A DNA stretch of 64,000 nucleotides, from contig NZ_SOAU01000001.1 of the NCBI RefSeq assembly GCF_004364865.1, positions 3,566,001 through 3,630,000 of the forward strand. Direction: 5' to 3'. Positions 12,559 through 63,950 of the stretch are shown piece after piece. Position 1 is the first letter of the stretch; the number at the start of each line of letters is the position of its first letter. The DNA is from Ilumatobacter fluminis. Its GTDB lineage: Bacteria; Actinomycetota; Acidimicrobiia; Acidimicrobiales; Ilumatobacteraceae. Both the position numbers and the translations under genes were made by a program. Below the pieces are notes generated by a model that saw only the letters and a program-made list of their open reading frames with translations, did not search any database and was not told the DNA's origin.

Positions 12559-12866
12559 TCGCGTTCGGGATCGCCGCAGGAGCCGCCCTCGGCGGCGTCG
12601 CTCGGTATGCGCTGGCCGGGTTTGGTTGGCGTGGCACGCTCGCCGTCAACGTCGCCGGGTCGTTCCTGCTCGGGCTGTTGCTCGGCATCGACGTCGGGCG
12701 CGACTGGTTGCTGGTGCTGGGCGCCGGGGGCTGCGGGGCGCTCACCACGTTCAGCACGTTCGCGCTCGAGGCGAGCCGCGGTCCATGGCAGGCACGGGCA
12801 ACGATCGTTTCGATCACGACGGCGACCTGTCTCGCCGCGGCGACGGTCGGCTACGCGATCGGGTGA
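12555..12866 (+). CDS. crcB: Fluoride channel CrcB, subunit 2
   Basis: A 103-residue partner of the preceding channel, starting at GTG 12555, which overlaps the upstream TGA. It has four hydrophobic segments, GGVARYAL near residue 14, VNVAGSFLLGLL near 32 and CGALTTFSTFALE near 60. Its shorter loops and divergence from subunit 1 fit a heterodimeric pair rather than a recent duplication. The final 16 bp overlap the convergent methyltransferase gene. Confidence 0.92.
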   Translation: MIAFGIAAGAALGGVARYALAGFGWRGTLAVNVAGSFLLGLLLGIDVGRDWLLVLGAGGCGALTTFSTFALEASRGPWQARATIVSITTATCLAAATVGYAIG

Positions 12867-13687
12867 CCGACCGGGTCGGCGGCGCCCGGCCACCGGATCG
12901 TCGCCACCTCGGCGACGAACGCCGGTGGGTGCTCGGCCAGCCAGTGTGCCAACTCGCCATCGCGGTCGGCCGGGAGCGCCAGGCGGCGACGGGCGACCGG
13001 CACGAGGTTGTCGGGATCGGCACCGAACCGTGACAGCGGGCGACGCGGCGACACCGTGTACTCGGGGTCGAGTCCGAGTTCCCGAAGGACCGCGACCAGG
13101 TCGAGATGCGTCGGGCCGTCCGGACGATCGAGTTCCCAGAAGTGTTCGAACGCCTCGCTCCAGGCCGTCATCGGGTGCCGGACGGGGAGCTCCACGACGA
13201 CTGCGAGCCGGGCGCGAGCCGTGAGCGCGATCAGGAACGGCACCACGTCGGCGACGTCGAACAGGACGTGATGACAGATCGCGACGTCGGCGGTCGGTGT
13301 CGTCGCCATGACGTCGGGCCAGTCTCCGTGCACGGTTCGGCGTGCGACTCCGGCTCGGGTGGCGGCGTCGACGAACTCGTCGAGCATCGCCCCGGTCCGG
13401 TCGACCCCGATCACTTCGGTCGCGGGCGGGATCAGGGGTGCCACCGACCTCCCGCCGCCGCAACCGACGTCGAGCACGGTGCCGCCGCGCGGCGGCAGCA
13501 CCTCGCGCGCCCAGCGGGCGGACGTCGACTCCCGCTCGATCGTGTCGTCGACCGCGAAGCGGGCGACGTCGTGGCGGAACGGCGACTCGGTCGCGGCCTC
13601 GAGCACTCGCTCGGGGAGCGACCAGGCGGTGAGCGCGTCACGCCAACGATCGGCGGCGGTCGGTTCGTCGGCGGCGCCCTCGATCAC
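12851..13687 (-). CDS. SAM-dependent class I methyltransferase
   Basis: This 278-residue protein starts at GTG 13687, overlapping the P450 stop by 4 nt. Motif I is GGTVLDVGCGGGRSVAPL (about residues 81-98), followed by EVIGVDRTGAMLDE (acidic end of beta 2) and VAICHHVLFDVADVVPFL (motif IV/V region), all typical of the Methyltransf_11/25 fold. The substrate is not evident. Since it is translationally coupled to a ferredoxin-P450 pair, it may methylate a hydroxylated product, but that is inference. The TAG stop overlaps crcB on the other strand by 16 bp. Confidence 0.85.
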   Translation of the reverse strand: MIEGAADEPTAADRWRDALTAWSLPERVLEAATESPFRHDVARFAVDDTIERESTSARWAREVLPPRGGTVLDVGCGGGRSVAPLIPPATEVIGVDRTGAMLDEFVDAATRAGVARRTVHGDWPDVMATTPTADVAICHHVLFDVADVVPFLIALTARARLAVVVELPVRHPMTAWSEAFEHFWELDRPDGPTHLDLVAVLRELGLDPEYTVSPRRPLSRFGADPDNLVPVARRRLALPADRDGELAHWLAEHPPAFVAEVATIRWPGAADPVGHPIA

Positions 13688-16073: not shown

Positions 16074-16703
16074 ATGCAACCCGTCCTGTTCGCGAACGTG
16101 ATCACCGATCTCGCCGACTGGCTCGGGGAGTTCTCGGCGAACTGGTGGTTCCTGCTGATCATCTTCGTGATCGCGATCCTCGACTCGGTGATCCCGATCG
16201 TGCCGAGCGAAACGATGGTCATCATCGGCGGCGTCGCTGCCGGCGCTGGCGACCAGTCGCTCTTGCTCGTGATTTTGTTCGGCGCATCCGGTGCGTTCAT
16301 CGGCGATCACACGGCGTACTTCATCGGCAACCACCTGTCCGGTTGGATCGAGCGCCAGGCCGAGTCTCGCCCGAAGCAGAAGAACCGACTCGTGTGGGCC
16401 GAGGAACAAATCCGTGTCCGTGGCGGGCTCCTGCTGATCACGGCACGATTCATCCCGGGTGGGCGGACCGCGCTCACGATCTCGTCGGGCGTGACGCGCC
16501 AGCCTCGGCGTTGGTTCACGTCGTGGATCACCGCCGCCGTGCTGATCTGGGCGACGTACGCCGCGCTCCTCGGCTACATCGGCGGCAAGGCGTTCGAGGA
16601 CGACCACACCCGAGCATTCCTCGTCGCCTTCGGCGCCGCGATCACGGCGACCGTCCTGATCGAGGTCGGCCGTCACTACTGGACGAAGCTCCGGTCCCGC
16701 TGA
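16074..16703 (+). CDS. DedA family membrane protein
   Basis: This 209-residue integral membrane protein belongs to the DedA/VTT (SNARE-associated) family. Visible features are the re-entrant motif LDSVIPIVPSETMVIIGG near residue 37, the second one [16 protein letters not shown] near 124 with its conserved Arg residues, and DHTAYFIG. About five hydrophobic segments are present. Members of this family translocate phospholipids such as undecaprenyl phosphate or act in membrane-potential homeostasis. Which one applies here cannot be told. It is monocistronic, followed by a nitroreductase 43 bp downstream. Confidence 0.92.
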   Translation: MQPVLFANVITDLADWLGEFSANWWFLLIIFVIAILDSVIPIVPSETMVIIGGVAAGAGDQSLLLVILFGASGAFIGDHTAYFIGNHLSGWIERQAESRPKQKNRLVWAEEQIRVRGGLLLITARFIPGGRTALTISSGVTRQPRRWFTSWITAAVLIWATYAALLGYIGGKAFEDDHTRAFLVAFGAAITATVLIEVGRHYWTKLRSR

Positions 16704-16746
16704 TCCGATTCGATCGCGCCGCAGCACTGCCGACAGACTGCCCGGC

Positions 16747-23916: not shown

Positions 23917-24465
23917 CTAATTGATCGACCACTGTCGCCATCCAACCGGAGCGGCTCGATCGCGTTCGCTCCTCGGTGGGAACGTGACGATGCCCATCAG
24001 CCGCTCGGGAATGCCGTGATACGGCTCACTCGCTCCCACCAGATCGGCGCAACGTTCGCAGGAGAACGGGTGGTCGGGGACGAAGTTGGTGTGGGAGACG
24101 TGGTCGGGATACACCGCGCCGGCGTAGGCGCCGCAGACCGCCACCTGCCGTCGGCGGCGGTCGCGAACATCGCCCACTGGGTCTCGGCTGTCTCGCAGTG
24201 CGTGAGACTTCTGGTTGATCATCCGCACCGTGGGGCCGGTGCGGTCGACGCACAACCGCACGCCGTTCGCTCTGCGCCAGCGGTAGGCGCGCTGTCGGCA
24301 GGCGTTGGTGCAATACACACGGGAACGGCCAGGGGCGTAGAGGTACCGTTCGACGTCGACGCCGCACATGGGGCAGGGATGGATCTCTCGGTCGTCCTCG
24401 ACACGACAGTGGCTCCGGTCCTGACGGTCCGGCTGCGAGGTTCGGGCGAGCAGCGGCGGGTTCAT
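23917..24465 (-). CDS. Small zinc-finger protein of unknown function
   Basis: A 182-residue basic protein with a four-Cys knuckle CPMCGVD ... YCTNACRQRAYRWRRANG. A second CxxC pair lies near the C-terminus (FSCERCADLVG). The first motif (CxxC-x(about 15)-YCxxxCRQRAYRxR) recurs in short actinobacterial proteins and in some plasmid and phage genes, where it is thought to bind zinc and perhaps nucleic acid. I know of no defined function. The start is uncertain: ATG 24465 is the first one upstream of the motif that leaves the repeat cluster non-coding, and it lacks a clear Shine-Dalgarno. It is divergent from the TIGR03084 gene across the repeat cluster. Confidence 0.6.
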   Translation of the reverse strand: MNPPLLARTSQPDRQDRSHCRVEDDREIHPCPMCGVDVERYLYAPGRSRVYCTNACRQRAYRWRRANGVRLCVDRTGPTVRMINQKSHALRDSRDPVGDVRDRRRRQVAVCGAYAGAVYPDHVSHTNFVPDHPFSCERCADLVGASEPYHGIPERLMGIVTFPPRSERDRAAPVGWRQWSIN

Positions 24466-24561: not shown

Positions 24562-24776
24562 CACGTGGTGAATCGTCTCACCGGCACAGGACGACGTTCC
24601 TGGTGAATCGTCTCACCACGACCGACTCGGCGTGGTCAATCGTCTCGACCCATGCCGAGTCCCGCTGAGACGATTCACCACGTGCTCCAACACACCCCCG
24701 GACCCGGACACCGAGACGATTCACCACGTGCTCCAACACACCCCCGGACCCGGACACCGAGACGATTCACCACGTG
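24562..24776. repeat. Cluster of inverted and direct GAGACGATTCACCACGTG repeats
   Basis: Three copies of a 19-mer TGAATCGTCTC-type motif run in reverse orientation: 24562-24580 (exact), 24601-24618 (shortened, itself palindromic TGGTGA-N6-TCACCA) and 24632-24649 (one mismatch). Three copies run forward: 24666-24684, 24712-24730 and 24758-24776. The forward copies sit at the head of an exact 46-bp tandem repeat (24667-24712 and 24713-24758, then 22 bp of a third unit). Each full copy ends in the palindrome CACGTG. A perfect GACTCGGC / GCCGAGTC pair (24624-24631, 24654-24661) brackets the third reverse copy. The cluster fills most of the 386-bp spacer between two divergent genes. The rest of the spacer shows nothing recognised. 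Confidence 0.9.
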
Positions 24777-24851: not shown

Positions 24852-25655
24852 ATGGACGTGCACTCCGTACTCGACGATCTCGTCGCCGAACAGGCAGCGC
24901 TCGACGAGGTCGTTGCTCCCCTCGACCCCGAGCAGTGGTCGCTGCCGACACCGTCCCCGCGCTGGTCGATCGCCGACCAGGTCGGCCACCTGACCTACTT
25001 CGACACCACCGCCGCGCTCGCCATCCGTGACGCCGACGGGTTCACGGCACATCGAGATGAGCTCGTGGCCTCGATGACCGACGAACTCGCGGTCGACGAA
25101 GCGACACTCGGCCACTTCCGATCGCTCGCGCCCGACGCCCAACTCGCCGAGTGGCGACGCCGCCGCGCCGAACTCGAAGAGGCGGGCCGCACCCTCGACG
25201 ACTCGACACGAGTCGAGTGGTACGGCCCCTCGATGGGTTCCAAGTCGTTCCTCACCGCACGACTCATGGAGGTGTGGGCCCACGGTCAGGACATCTGCGA
25301 CACCGTCGGCGTCGAGCGCCCCGCCACCGACCGGGTACGCCACATCGCACAACTCGGCGTCATCACACGCGGCTGGAGCTATCTGGTGCGAGGCGAACAG
25401 CCGCCCGAGCGACCCGTCGCCGTCACCTTGACGGCACCGTCCGGCGAGATCTGGCACTGGAACGACGCCGACGCCGACGACGCCGACACGATCACCGGGC
25501 CGGCGATCGACTTCTGTCTCGTCGTGACACAACGACGGCATCCGTCCGACACCGATCTGGTCATCACCGGTGAGGCGGCCCAGGATTGGATGTCGAAAGC
25601 TCAGGCCTTTGCCGGCGGCGCGACCTCCGGCCCATCCCCCCGAGGAGACCGCTGA
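24852..25655 (+). CDS. TIGR03084 family metal-binding protein (DinB/MDMPI-like)
   Basis: This 267-residue protein begins MDVHSVLDDLVAEQAALDEV and has the four-helix DinB/maleylpyruvate isomerase-type domain. WSIADQVGHLTYFDTTAALA holds the first metal His and LMEVWAHGQDICDTVG the HxxD pair, as in mycothiol-dependent isomerase-like proteins. The C-terminal region is of the TIGR03084 type. Function is unknown, though members are typically next to acyl-CoA dehydrogenases or CoA ligases, as here. ATG 24852 is chosen because the family starts there; a frame open from 24774 would begin inside the repeat cluster. The stop overlaps the next start (TGATG). Confidence 0.85.
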   Translation: MDVHSVLDDLVAEQAALDEVVAPLDPEQWSLPTPSPRWSIADQVGHLTYFDTTAALAIRDADGFTAHRDELVASMTDELAVDEATLGHFRSLAPDAQLAEWRRRRAELEEAGRTLDDSTRVEWYGPSMGSKSFLTARLMEVWAHGQDICDTVGVERPATDRVRHIAQLGVITRGWSYLVRGEQPPERPVAVTLTAPSGEIWHWNDADADDADTITGPAIDFCLVVTQRRHPSDTDLVITGEAAQDWMSKAQAFAGGATSGPSPRGDR

Positions 25656-38798: not shown

Positions 38799-40553
38799 TC
38801 AGGGTGACGTCAGCGTCTGCACGGCGGTCCCGGTGGCGTCGAGCACGGTGAACGTCACGGGCCCGACCGCCGTCTGCAGCTCGACCGACGCGATGTCGGG
38901 GGCGACGACGCCGCCGAGCGAGCACGACGCGGCACCGCACGACACGTTCGAGGTGCTGCGCAGGTCGAACGAGGTCGACACGGTGATCGTTCCCAACTCA
39001 CCGGTCAGTCCGATCACGACGAGGTGGATCCGCTTGACCCCCGAGTTCCCGACCGGCGAGTCGGACACGATGTAGGCGGTTCCAGGACCGAGGACGACCG
39101 GCACCGTCGTCGTCGCCGGGGTCGTCGTCGCCGGGGTCGTCGTCACCGGTGTCGTCGTCGTCACCGGTGTCGTCGTCGTCACCGGTGTCGTCGTCGTGGT
39201 CACCGGTACCGTCGTCGTGGTCACCGGGGTCGTCGTCGTGGTCACCGGCACCGTCGTCGTGGGCACCGGTACCGTCGTCGTGGGCACCGTCGTCGTCGGC
39301 ACGGCCCGGCGGGGCGTGACCGTGGTGGGAGAGACGACCACCGGCGCGATGGTCGTGGTCGGGTCCGGCGTCTCGACCGCAACCGCAGCCGTGGTCGGGA
39401 CCGAGGTCGTGGTCACGACCGTGGTCGTGGTCGTCGCGGGCGTCGTCGTACTCACGACGGCGGCGGGCTCGTTCCCGGCCGGATCGGACGCGGTTGCGGC
39501 CGCATCGGCGCCGCCGGCTCCCCGATCGGCGGACGAGTCCGAGGCACCGCCGGTGGCACCGGGGTCGTCATCCGACCCGGAGGCGTCGTCGGGTCGGGCG
39601 GCTGTCGCCCCGTCGGATCCGGTCGCTCCGGCCGGTTCGACGGCCGACGAGCCGTCGGCGCGCAGGGACGCTCCGGCGACGAGAGCGAACACGAGCAACC
39701 CGGCCACCACACCGACCGACAACCCGGCGGCCAGTTGCTTCGGAAGCCGACGGAACCAGCCGACCAGCCCCGTCATCCCCAACCCGACCGGCAGGAGTGC
39801 CGACGAGACCGAGAATCCGTGGAACGCGATCATGGCCGGCGCCAGGGCGACGCCCAGCTTGCTGCCGGTCACGGCGCCGACACGCCAGGCGATCGCCGCA
39901 CACTCGTCGCACCCGCCCAGGTGCTCGTCGACGACTGCATCCACCGCGTCGGCGGTCGCGTCACCGGCGATCAGCATCTGCAGGTGCAGACGGACGTCGT
40001 CGTTGCACGCGTCGTCGACCACCTGGGTCAAGTAGGCCGAGCGCAGCCCGGCCCGCGCTCGCTTGCGGAGCGCCGAGAAGGCGTTCGCGGAGGGAAGGTC
40101 GAGCAGCGGTGCGGCGTGGCGAGGCGACATGCCCTCCACGTCGCTGTACCAGAGTGCGTTCTGCCACGCCTCCGGCAGTGACAGGTACGCCGTCGCCACA
40201 CGCGGATCGACGTCGGCGGTCTCGTCGTCGAGCAGTGTGCTCACGTCGAGTTCGACTTCCTGATACGGCGCCGCCTGCCCGGCCGCGACCGACCGGATCG
40301 TGGCGGCGAGATAGGGGCCGAAGCCCTGGGTCGGCCCGGCACCGCGCGAGATCGCGGTGAGGACCCGCCGGAACGCTTCCGCGACGTAGTCGTCGGCATG
40401 GCGGCGCGACTGACGACGCGCGACCTTGTACGCGAAGTCGTGGTAGCGCGCGAACAGTTCGCCGTACGCGTCGTGGTCGCCGGCGCGAACGAGTTCGAGC
40501 AGCGCGACCGTGTCGAGGTCGACGAATCGCCGCGCTGTGGTCGTCGCAGCCAT
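38799..40553 (-). CDS. ECF-like sigma factor fused to zinc-finger anti-sigma-like and membrane domains
   Basis: The protein is 584 residues. Sigma region 2 lies at about 15-90 (LLELVRAGDHDAYGELFARY, ADDYVAEAFRRVLTA). Sigma region 4 lies at about 124-175 (LPEAWQNALWYSDVEGMSPR, then LRKRARAGLRSAYL). A ZAS-type zinc motif H-x3-C-x2-C follows (His221, Cys225, Cys228 in DEHLGGCDEC). Hydrophobic stretches lie at about 243-276 and 284-305, then an acidic linker, a 120-residue Thr/Pro/Val repeat stalk (TTTVPVTTTT), and a C-terminal extracellular domain (about 490-584) with two Cys. The expected reading is a sigma factor held at the membrane, with sensing outside. Whether the first hydrophobic stretch spans the membrane is unclear, and it decides C-terminal topology. 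It is monocistronic. Confidence 0.88.
   Translation of the reverse strand: MAATTTARRFVDLDTVALLELVRAGDHDAYGELFARYHDFAYKVARRQSRRHADDYVAEAFRRVLTAISRGAGPTQGFGPYLAATIRSVAAGQAAPYQEVELDVSTLLDDETADVDPRVATAYLSLPEAWQNALWYSDVEGMSPRHAAPLLDLPSANAFSALRKRARAGLRSAYLTQVVDDACNDDVRLHLQMLIAGDATADAVDAVVDEHLGGCDECAAIAWRVGAVTGSKLGVALAPAMIAFHGFSVSSALLPVGLGMTGLVGWFRRLPKQLAAGLSVGVVAGLLVFALVAGASLRADGSSAVEPAGATGSDGATAARPDDASGSDDDPGATGGASDSSADRGAGGADAAATASDPAGNEPAAVVSTTTPATTTTTVVTTTSVPTTAAVAVETPDPTTTIAPVVVSPTTVTPRRAVPTTTVPTTTVPVPTTTVPVTTTTTPVTTTTVPVTTTTTPVTTTTPVTTTTPVTTTPATTTPATTTVPVVLGPGTAYIVSDSPVGNSGVKRIHLVVIGLTGELGTITVSTSFDLRSTSNVSCGAASCSLGGVVAPDIASVELQTAVGPVTFTVLDATGTAVQTLTSP
39104..39303. repeat. Coding tandem repeat (Thr/Pro/Val stalk)
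   Basis: Degenerate units of about 24-30 bp of the form GTCGTCGTCGTGGTCACCGG(T/G) lie inside the sigma-fusion gene. They encode the TTTVPVTTTTPV stalk. Adjacent units such as those at 39131-39190 are nearly identical, so length variation between strains is likely. Similar Thr-rich DNA is present in the sortase gene. Confidence 0.8.
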
Positions 40554-62799: not shown

Positions 62800-62910
62800 A
62801 GGTCAGTCGTCACCTCGCTGTCATCGGGGGCCGTGTTTGTTCACACTGCCGACACACCGCCCCGGGAGCGGCCGGCATCGGGATCACGTCACGTCGACGT
62901 CACGCCAACG

Positions 62911-62940
62911 TCACGTCACATCACGTCACATCACGTCACA
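62911..62940. repeat. Three tandem TCACGTCACA units in a CGTCAC-rich spacer
   Basis: Three exact 10-bp units are flanked by degenerate CGTCACG sequences from 62885 to 62950. They fill the spacer between the metallopeptidase stop and the ATP-grasp start, which is the probable promoter region of the ATP-grasp operon. A 10-bp period places the copies on one DNA face. Confidence 0.8.
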
Positions 62941-62945
62941 TCGCG

Positions 62946-63950
62946 TCACGCCGCCGTGCCGACGGCACGGTGGACGACGTCGAGCTTCGACACCGCCGTG
63001 GGCGACAGCACGAACGGATACAGGTCGTTCTGGCCGATCGATCGCGACATCGCGTTGAGCGCGAACGTCACGCCGAGCCAGCGTCCGATCATCGGACCGA
63101 TCGACACGCTCGTGGTGCTCGCCCAGGCGCCGGCACCGGCCGAGCGGGCGGGTTCGCCGACGTCGAGACCGAACGCGTCGGCGGTCTCGAGACCACCGAG
63201 GATGTGGAGGTAGTGGGCGAAGGTCTCGGCCCAGTCCTCCCACGGGTGCATGGTCGCGTACTGGCTGACGTGGGTCTCGGCCCAGTCGGCCTGCGGACCG
63301 GCGTCGCCGTAGTGCTGCGACAGCGCGTCCTCGTACGAAGCCCGCTCGTCGCCGAACAGGTCACGGAACTCGTCGAGCATGCCCGACGTCTCGATCAGGG
63401 TCGGCCAGTAGTAGTGGCCGATCTCGTGGCGGAGGTGACCGAGCACCGTGCGGTACGGCTCGCCGAGCTGCTGACGGACGAACTCTCGATGGGCGTCGTC
63501 GGATTCGGACAGGTCGAGGGTGATCACACCGCCCTGGTGTCCGGTCGTGACCGAACGGCCACGCGACGACAGCAACTCGAAGGTGAGTCCGGCGTCGGGG
63601 TCGACGGTGCGTGACACGATCGGCAGTCCGATCGCGTCGAGCTGCGAGATCAGGCGACGCTTGGCGGTCTCGGCGTCGGCGAACGCGACCAGGGCATCGA
63701 GGTCGTCGTCGTTCGGTCGGACCGAGGTGAGCGAGCAGCTGTCGCACAGCGCGTCGGGGCTGGAGGCGTCGATGAGCCAGTTGCAGCGCGCCACCTCGTG
63801 GTTGGCGCAGTAGCGGTAGGTGTCGGTGTCGGTCAGCGTGACGACCGACCGATCACGGCGCAGGTATCCGAGCGACGACCCACACGTCAGGCATTGGGAG
63901 TTGTCGAAGAAGACCAGCGCCCCGCACACCGCACATCGAAAAGCCTCCAC
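62946..63950 (-). CDS. Zinc-ribbon metallopeptidase (Peptidase_Mx-like, COG4307 type)
   Basis: The protein is 334 residues, beginning at GTG 63950. Two zinc ribbons open it: Cys6/Cys9/Cys20/Cys23 (FRCAVCGAL, QCLTCGSSLGYL) and Cys48/Cys56/Cys69/Cys72. The catalytic region has the HExxH motif HEIGHYYW (His175, Glu176, His179) and downstream THVSQYATMHPWEDWAETFA, with Glu/His candidates for the third zinc ligand. From memory, this family is a frequent neighbour of alpha-E/ATP-grasp/transglutaminase genes, as it is here (146 bp upstream of the ATP-grasp gene). It could process the product of the locus. No signal peptide is seen. Confidence 0.9.
   Translation of the reverse strand: MEAFRCAVCGALVFFDNSQCLTCGSSLGYLRRDRSVVTLTDTDTYRYCANHEVARCNWLIDASSPDALCDSCSLTSVRPNDDDLDALVAFADAETAKRRLISQLDAIGLPIVSRTVDPDAGLTFELLSSRGRSVTTGHQGGVITLDLSESDDAHREFVRQQLGEPYRTVLGHLRHEIGHYYWPTLIETSGMLDEFRDLFGDERASYEDALSQHYGDAGPQADWAETHVSQYATMHPWEDWAETFAHYLHILGGLETADAFGLDVGEPARSAGAGAWASTTSVSIGPMIGRWLGVTFALNAMSRSIGQNDLYPFVLSPTAVSKLDVVHRAVGTAA

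Follow-up and report, generated by a model that had tools for sequence, protein, structure and literature searches.

The short repeats upstream of an unclassified zinc-finger gene in Ilumatobacter fluminis may form a binding-site array for the protein encoded by that gene, a reading to which sequence comparison lends about an even chance of being correct. The motif is conserved, it is linked to the gene, and its copies are arranged in outward-facing blocks. Related bacteria keep the gene and the repeats as a pair, and therefore the repeats are probably docking sites, not the product of a chance duplication. In this way, comparison alone ties an unclassified protein family to a likely DNA target, and many natural protein-motif pairs are on offer for binding studies. 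In the open-license PMC literature covered, we found no description of a system that combines a zinc-finger gene with an outward array.

Repeat cluster and adjacent genes

The window is the whole 64,000-nucleotide stretch analyzed, positions 3566001-3630000 of a single-contig 4.78-Mb genome (G000). Within it, the motif GAGACGATTCACCA occurs on the reverse strand at 24566-24579 and 24601-24614 (both exact) and at 24633-24646 (one mismatch), and on the forward strand at 24667-24680, 24713-24726, and 24759-24772 (all exact). A 20-bp center (24647-24666) separates the two outward-facing blocks. The preliminary description had reported three inverted and three direct copies, and both sets lie where it placed them, although only five of the six are exact and the CACGTG that it saw usually following the motif is present in four of the six. 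The exact 46-bp tandem repeat in which it set the forward copies (24667-24758, plus strand) comprises two exact units (24667-24712 and 24713-24758) with identical 26-bp spacers, while the third unit matches over its first 20 bases only. The position between divergent genes held as described: the cluster occupies a 386-bp gap between a minus-strand ATG at 24465 and a plus-strand ATG at 24852. So did the capacity of the arms for long folding, since the inverted arms reached −59.8 kcal/mol as single-stranded DNA (z = −7.3) and −114.2 kcal/mol as RNA (z = −10.0), and none of 200 shuffles was as stable in either case.

Counting GAGACGATTCACCA in the window at up to three mismatches revealed no enrichment (8 matches vs 7.6 expected); the non-chance feature is the presence of six copies with at most one mismatch inside 207 bases. 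In the whole genome, the same one-mismatch limit returned 15 matches vs 2 for the reversed control, of which eight form a second array, six are the window cluster, and one lies in a coding gene. This single copy at 2195881 (L024) and its counterpart in G004 (L025) were set aside as a coding coincidence, an in-frame ...VNRLVGN... in apparently orthologous genes, and the copy is still included in the count of 15. An analysis of helical phasing was dropped because there were too few independent spacing classes. Elsewhere in the window, 13 imperfect copies of a TCACG pentanucleotide repeat lie at the end of a minus-strand gene (62884-62950), and tandem repeats of 15-21 bp lie at 39105-39302 within the minus-strand gene 38799-40553.

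The key partner, overlooked in the preliminary description, is the gene to the left of the cluster (23917-24465, minus strand), which encodes an unclassified protein with two predicted zinc sites, 182 residues long from its ATG; we propose it as the partner of the array. The position of this ATG was counted from the open reading frame, and some protein queries were read from 24471, two codons before it. Directly downstream on the same strand is a gene for a carboxyltransferase subunit (PF01039; 22297-23892). The divergent gene on the other side carries an MDMPI_N domain (24852-25655, plus strand), and its ATG at 24852 is the start common to relatives.

Twenty-five aligned homologues share two predicted zinc sites, with invariant CxxC...CxxxC and H...C...CxxC. 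An AlphaFold2 model built from these 25 sequences had a mean pLDDT of 73.9, and most of its N-terminal finger was confidently modeled as a hairpin followed by a helix (residues 56-69). Pfam and NCBIfam gave nothing near their cut-offs for five family members: the YacG model of NCBIfam scored 11.6 bits against a cut-off of 83, and CGNR had no Pfam hit at E 10 for five homologues with the HMMER filters applied. Hits in PHROGs were weak (best 7.7e-5, to an HNH family). The search of solved structures returned three weak and unconvincing hits, PDB fold searches returned only weak rows, among them 4tma (Z 2.6, rmsd 4.9, 46 aligned), and Foldseek found only a weak similarity to YacG (1lv3, E 0.97). 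Any likeness to YacG and CGNR zinc fingers would consist of a weak fold match and a weak NCBIfam hit, both to YacG, and a weak plasmid match annotated CGNR; all of these fall below thresholds, and the window protein has the second H...C...CxxC site.

Linkage of gene and array among relatives

We scanned 221 genomes of the family Ilumatobacteraceae. Two GAGACGATTC cores spaced 15-45 bp apart were present in 10 of them, and a laxer pattern, GNGACGATTC with a gap of 10-40 bp, was present in 18; the reversed control gave 0 both times. A 12-sequence profile of the protein (E 1e-5) matched 84 of the 221 genomes. Sixteen loci in 11 genomes scored as strong homologues (119.8-192.6 bits), and a clear gap separated them from all other matches, which reached at most 58.3 bits and included a fragment in G152 that lies where a contig stops. 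Of 397 genomes sampled from the order, only G000 and G021 exceeded 100 bits, both of them members of this family, and the best match outside the family scored 42.6 bits. The paired-core pattern was found in 8 of the 11 genomes with a strong homologue vs 2 of the 210 without one, and the laxer pattern in 10 of 11 vs 8 of 210; Fisher p values for this co-occurrence overstate it because the genomes are related.

At the level of individual loci, the repeats lie directly upstream of all 16 strong homologues and run in both orientations each time, down to the smallest gene-linked array, which in G152 has a single copy in each orientation. Among the 16 arrays that lie away from the gene, only 5 have both orientations (Fisher p = 7e-5). 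All 19 two-orientation arrays in a set of 28 have the reverse block first and the forward block second. A laxer count gave 20 outward arrays of 21, with G021z as the exception because of one extra one-mismatch hit. The consensus YGAGACGATTCRNGAYG was derived from these 28 arrays (170 units with at most one mismatch); its core columns are nearly invariant across the arrays and its flanking columns carry little information. Within most arrays the spacing hardly varies; from one array to another it differs, with 22, 34-37, 41-46, or 55 bp as the usual values. The arrays occur in several genera, so the earlier suggestion of a repeat family of this genome was right about a repeat family and too narrow in its range. 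The wider set of 32 arrays leaves out pairs from the laxer scan (those in G073, G203, G238, and G029, and the third of those in G021, at 4345690). A separate scan of genome contigs returned 113 stretches, most of them in unrelated phyla, alongside three viral stretches; the stretches viewed were titled Ilumatobacter, Ilumatobacteraceae, or Acidimicrobiaceae, plus a few others. In G006, two single-orientation arrays more than 5 kb apart point away from each other and enclose several genes (L216:6958-7437 and 12785-13006).

In 16 of 16 linked loci, the gene-proximal block has the same direction as the gene, a consequence of the outward order and the upstream position. This layout and the strong hairpin potential would also suit repeats that act in RNA, with sense copies in the leaders of transcripts born at the center, and translation or decay under the control of a protein or hairpin. 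We consider this improbable: a hairpin is impossible for arrays of a single orientation, and no Rfam family came near its gathering score.

Closer to home, the exact 14-mer occurs in one of the nine other genus members searched, G004, which has three reverse and three forward cores at the window locus and three copies at its ksgA locus. Its orthologous arrays keep the cores of G000 while their spacers differ. We inspected the carboxyltransferase locus in 10 genomes and found the gene and the array in G000, G004, and G005, with no array within about 1.5 kb of the locus in the other seven. In G003, the flanking genes lie about 120 bp apart with neither zinc-finger gene nor array between them, and in G002 they lie 430 bp apart and both are likewise missing. 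G003 lacks the zinc-finger gene and both arrays while its ksgA is as near to that of G000 as the ksgA of G004 is; its assembly is 79% complete and nonetheless covers both loci. At the gene-less carboxylase locus of G002, TTTCACGTCAGTTCGAAT and its complement form an inverted repeat of another kind (L260:3060-3560).

These relatives bear on two further explanations. A chance tandem duplication without function is suggested by near-identical units within some arrays, as would follow recent duplication. It is contradicted by the conserved cores between differing spacers in G004 and by a linkage that spans genera, and we regard it as very improbable. The preliminary description had proposed counting the motif in this genome and its relatives and had named absence from relatives, together with no transcript or protein binding, as the mark of such a chance event; the counts were 15 here at up to one mismatch, one of nine genus members for the exact 14-mer, and 10 of 221 for paired cores, and the motif is present both in G004 and in family genomes.

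Alternatively, the gene and array might travel together as a mobile module, with the array as its ends or target, which would account for their joint presence or absence at one locus and for the several modules in G032, G001, G034, and G161. We find this unlikely. The loci are shared by descent, at the carboxylase genes in G000, G004, and G005 and, for G006 and G034, beside genes read from their translations as phosphoglycerate mutases. In the loci viewed, the repeats lie upstream of the gene only. No homologue was found among 50,697 phage records, and plasmid homologues were partial and weak, one weak match being annotated CGNR.

The pairing of the protein with the motif is also suggested by covariation. 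Of 22 loci, 13 have A at the second core position and 9 have T. Residue 56 (numbered in the 184-residue reading; residue 54 when counted from the ATG), where the predicted helix begins, is Asn in 13 of 13 A loci and His, Gln, or Asp in 9 of 9 T loci, separating the two motif classes in 22 of 22. This test took in six distant homologues that have a related motif and left out seven that do not. Columns 35 and 42 separate the classes as well, so that 3 of 108 testable columns do so in the 22 loci, and 13 of 119 columns do so among the 16 close loci. On a tree built without the separating columns, the trait changed three times at best, and the well-supported (starred) branches force only one change. 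The covariation is thus suggestive support for the pairing and not proof of it.

Among the 13 distant homologues, the six with a related upstream motif, CGTCACGTGGAGATTC- or CGTCACGTGACGATTC-like and in some cases with inverted copies, are at L185, L223, L224, L227, L230, and L231. A general repeat search found no such motif at L183, L184, L196, L225, L226, L228, and L229 (L183 was also motif-scanned). Outside the family, the finger expression matched 2 of 8 loci, neither with a related motif. A scan for CGTCACGTGRMGATTC returned sites in 6 of 395 genomes; those at L242 and L236 were read as coding, and L240 also lies within a called gene. Further sites are in G027, in G413, and, three of them, in G029. 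Near base 1501 of L244, L245, and L235, CGTCACGTG-type sites overlap possible GTG starts (VTK, on the gene strand), and the possible start at L235 belongs to a gene of zinc-finger type from a different family.

Arrays away from the gene and a sister-genus element

The second array in this genome consists of eight exact copies at 35-bp spacing in one orientation (1286407-1286665), 2.3 Mb from the cluster. It sits between the convergent ends of genes that we read as an S4-type RNA-binding protein and KsgA. The ksgA locus was found in 9 of 11 genomes, and only G000 and G004 have an array there. A 71-bp tandem repeat adjoins the ksgA array in G000 (L023:10078-10340 and 16546-16734), with similar repeats nearby; repeats like it also aligned in G003 (L248), which is without the motif array.

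According to gene calls made by a codon-position heuristic, which was also used at the second array above and at the g11 loci below, the 16 arrays of the GAGACGATTC group that lie away from the gene are convergent in six cases, co-directional in four, divergent in two, and at edges in four. In genomes with a strong homologue, 15 of 15 such arrays share the A/T class of the gene-linked array, single units aside, although tandem duplication and spread inside one genome could also maintain this uniformity. The sixteenth, a nine-copy array in G158, lies outside that comparison, as no homologue was detected in this 81%-complete assembly.

The sister genus g11 has a dispersed element, GRGACGATTCNNNNCCAGA, that shares this core; 9 of 15 g11 genomes carry it, with up to 43 copies (G226). 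Among 33 distinct loci, 16 were convergent, 11 co-directional, none divergent, 3 inside called ORFs, and 3 at contig edges. Two of the carriers, G226 and G221, gave no profile match at E 1e-5, and this dispersal without the homologue is what weighs most against explaining everything by one protein. The g11 element and the window motif may share ancestry, the evidence for which is the core. Many of the GRGACGATTCNNNNCCAGA elements (L278-L291 and L296-L325) consist of a pair of copies 28 bp apart, and in some a third copy faces outward.

The spread in g11, the convergent loci there, and the six convergent arrays of the GAGACGATTC group raise the main rival possibility, which is that the repeats are a REP/BIME-like extragenic family, either selfish or kept at gene ends through effects on transcription, RNA stability, or DNA topology, with the zinc-finger gene as its mobilizer or one of several hosts. 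We see this as a real but minority prospect, given that G000 has two arrays only and that linkage to one gene is fixed in 16 of 16 loci.

Proposed function and comparison with known systems

We return to the binding-site array as the preferred reading. The zinc-finger protein would recognize YGAGACGATTCRNGAYG, with the N-terminal finger and the basic helix CRQRAYRWRR as the parts that probably make the contact. Binding to multiple copies on both sides of the short center would most likely control the protein's own promoter and, with it, the carboxylase genes that follow. Arrays elsewhere, such as the eight copies between convergent genes, may be further docking sites in trans, with titration, bridging, and chromosome organization as candidate roles. 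Binding, autoregulation, and the role in trans are inferred. Of the functions named in the preliminary description, an operator array is best supported for the repeats before the zinc-finger gene and explains the arrays at convergent ends poorly, since these are hard to read as ordinary operators; a recombination site found no support.

More tentatively, the whole could be a novel bacterial repeat system. Here, an orphan zinc-finger protein would have co-evolved with an outward array of its putative recognition motif, and this array would have been seeded at a small number of other chromosomal positions, often where genes end, to serve as anchors. A related element would have spread in a REP-like manner in the sister genus, and one residue at the helix start (Asn for A; His, Gln, or Asp for T) would read one base. 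If the gene-end arrays are bound too, this would be a zinc-finger-based site-array system outside both operators and REP/RAYT in little-studied Actinobacteria.

In architecture, and for g11 in position too, the array is similar to REP/BIME elements, but it fails three REP/RAYT features as defined in PMC2817692 and PMC3733652. The likeness to REP/BIME and RAYT (PMC2817692, PMC3733652, PMC1525189) lies in extragenic, inverted, and clustered copies, which are present here, in frequent convergent gene ends, and in a linked gene. The differences are that the unit here is non-palindromic, that this genome has two arrays, that the linked gene encodes a zinc-finger protein and not a Y1 transposase, and that the repeats lie on one side of it. 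None of the 170 units has a stem longer than 5 bp, and 20 have a 5-bp stem vs 5 when each unit was shuffled once. REP elements usually exceed 100 copies per genome (PMC2817692), whereas we counted 15 here (at most one mismatch) and 43 in the richest g11 genome. The Y1 transposase family PF01797 occurs in 7 of 16 genomes, in none of them beside an array by coordinates, and was absent from all five g11 genomes searched. The earlier judgment that the repeats are not REP elements thus stands for unit stem, copy number, and transposase, but not for the extragenic inverted and clustered copies. CGTC-tagged REPs are reported to have no dedicated transposase (PMC3733652), and CGTC is also found on the reverse strand of the window core; each of their units has a stem of 8-9 bp, whereas no stem here exceeds 5 bp.

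The preliminary description was also right that neither CRISPR nor IS ends fit. CRISPR is excluded because of the repeat orientation (16 of 16 gene-linked arrays run both ways) and the identical 26-bp spacers in the window, and IS ends or a MITE were rejected given multiple outward copies around a 20-bp center instead of one bounding inverted pair.

In autoregulatory operator clusters, the gene for a DNA-binding protein lies next to multiple copies of a single motif. Here, too, such copies sit between divergent genes and adjoin one whose product is a putative DNA-binding protein, and the cluster adjoins the candidate regulator in 16 of 16 strong homologues. The system differs in its up to 16 copies, its strict outward blocks, its extra arrays between convergent genes, and its unnamed protein family. 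Overall, the array would work most like a clustered operator.
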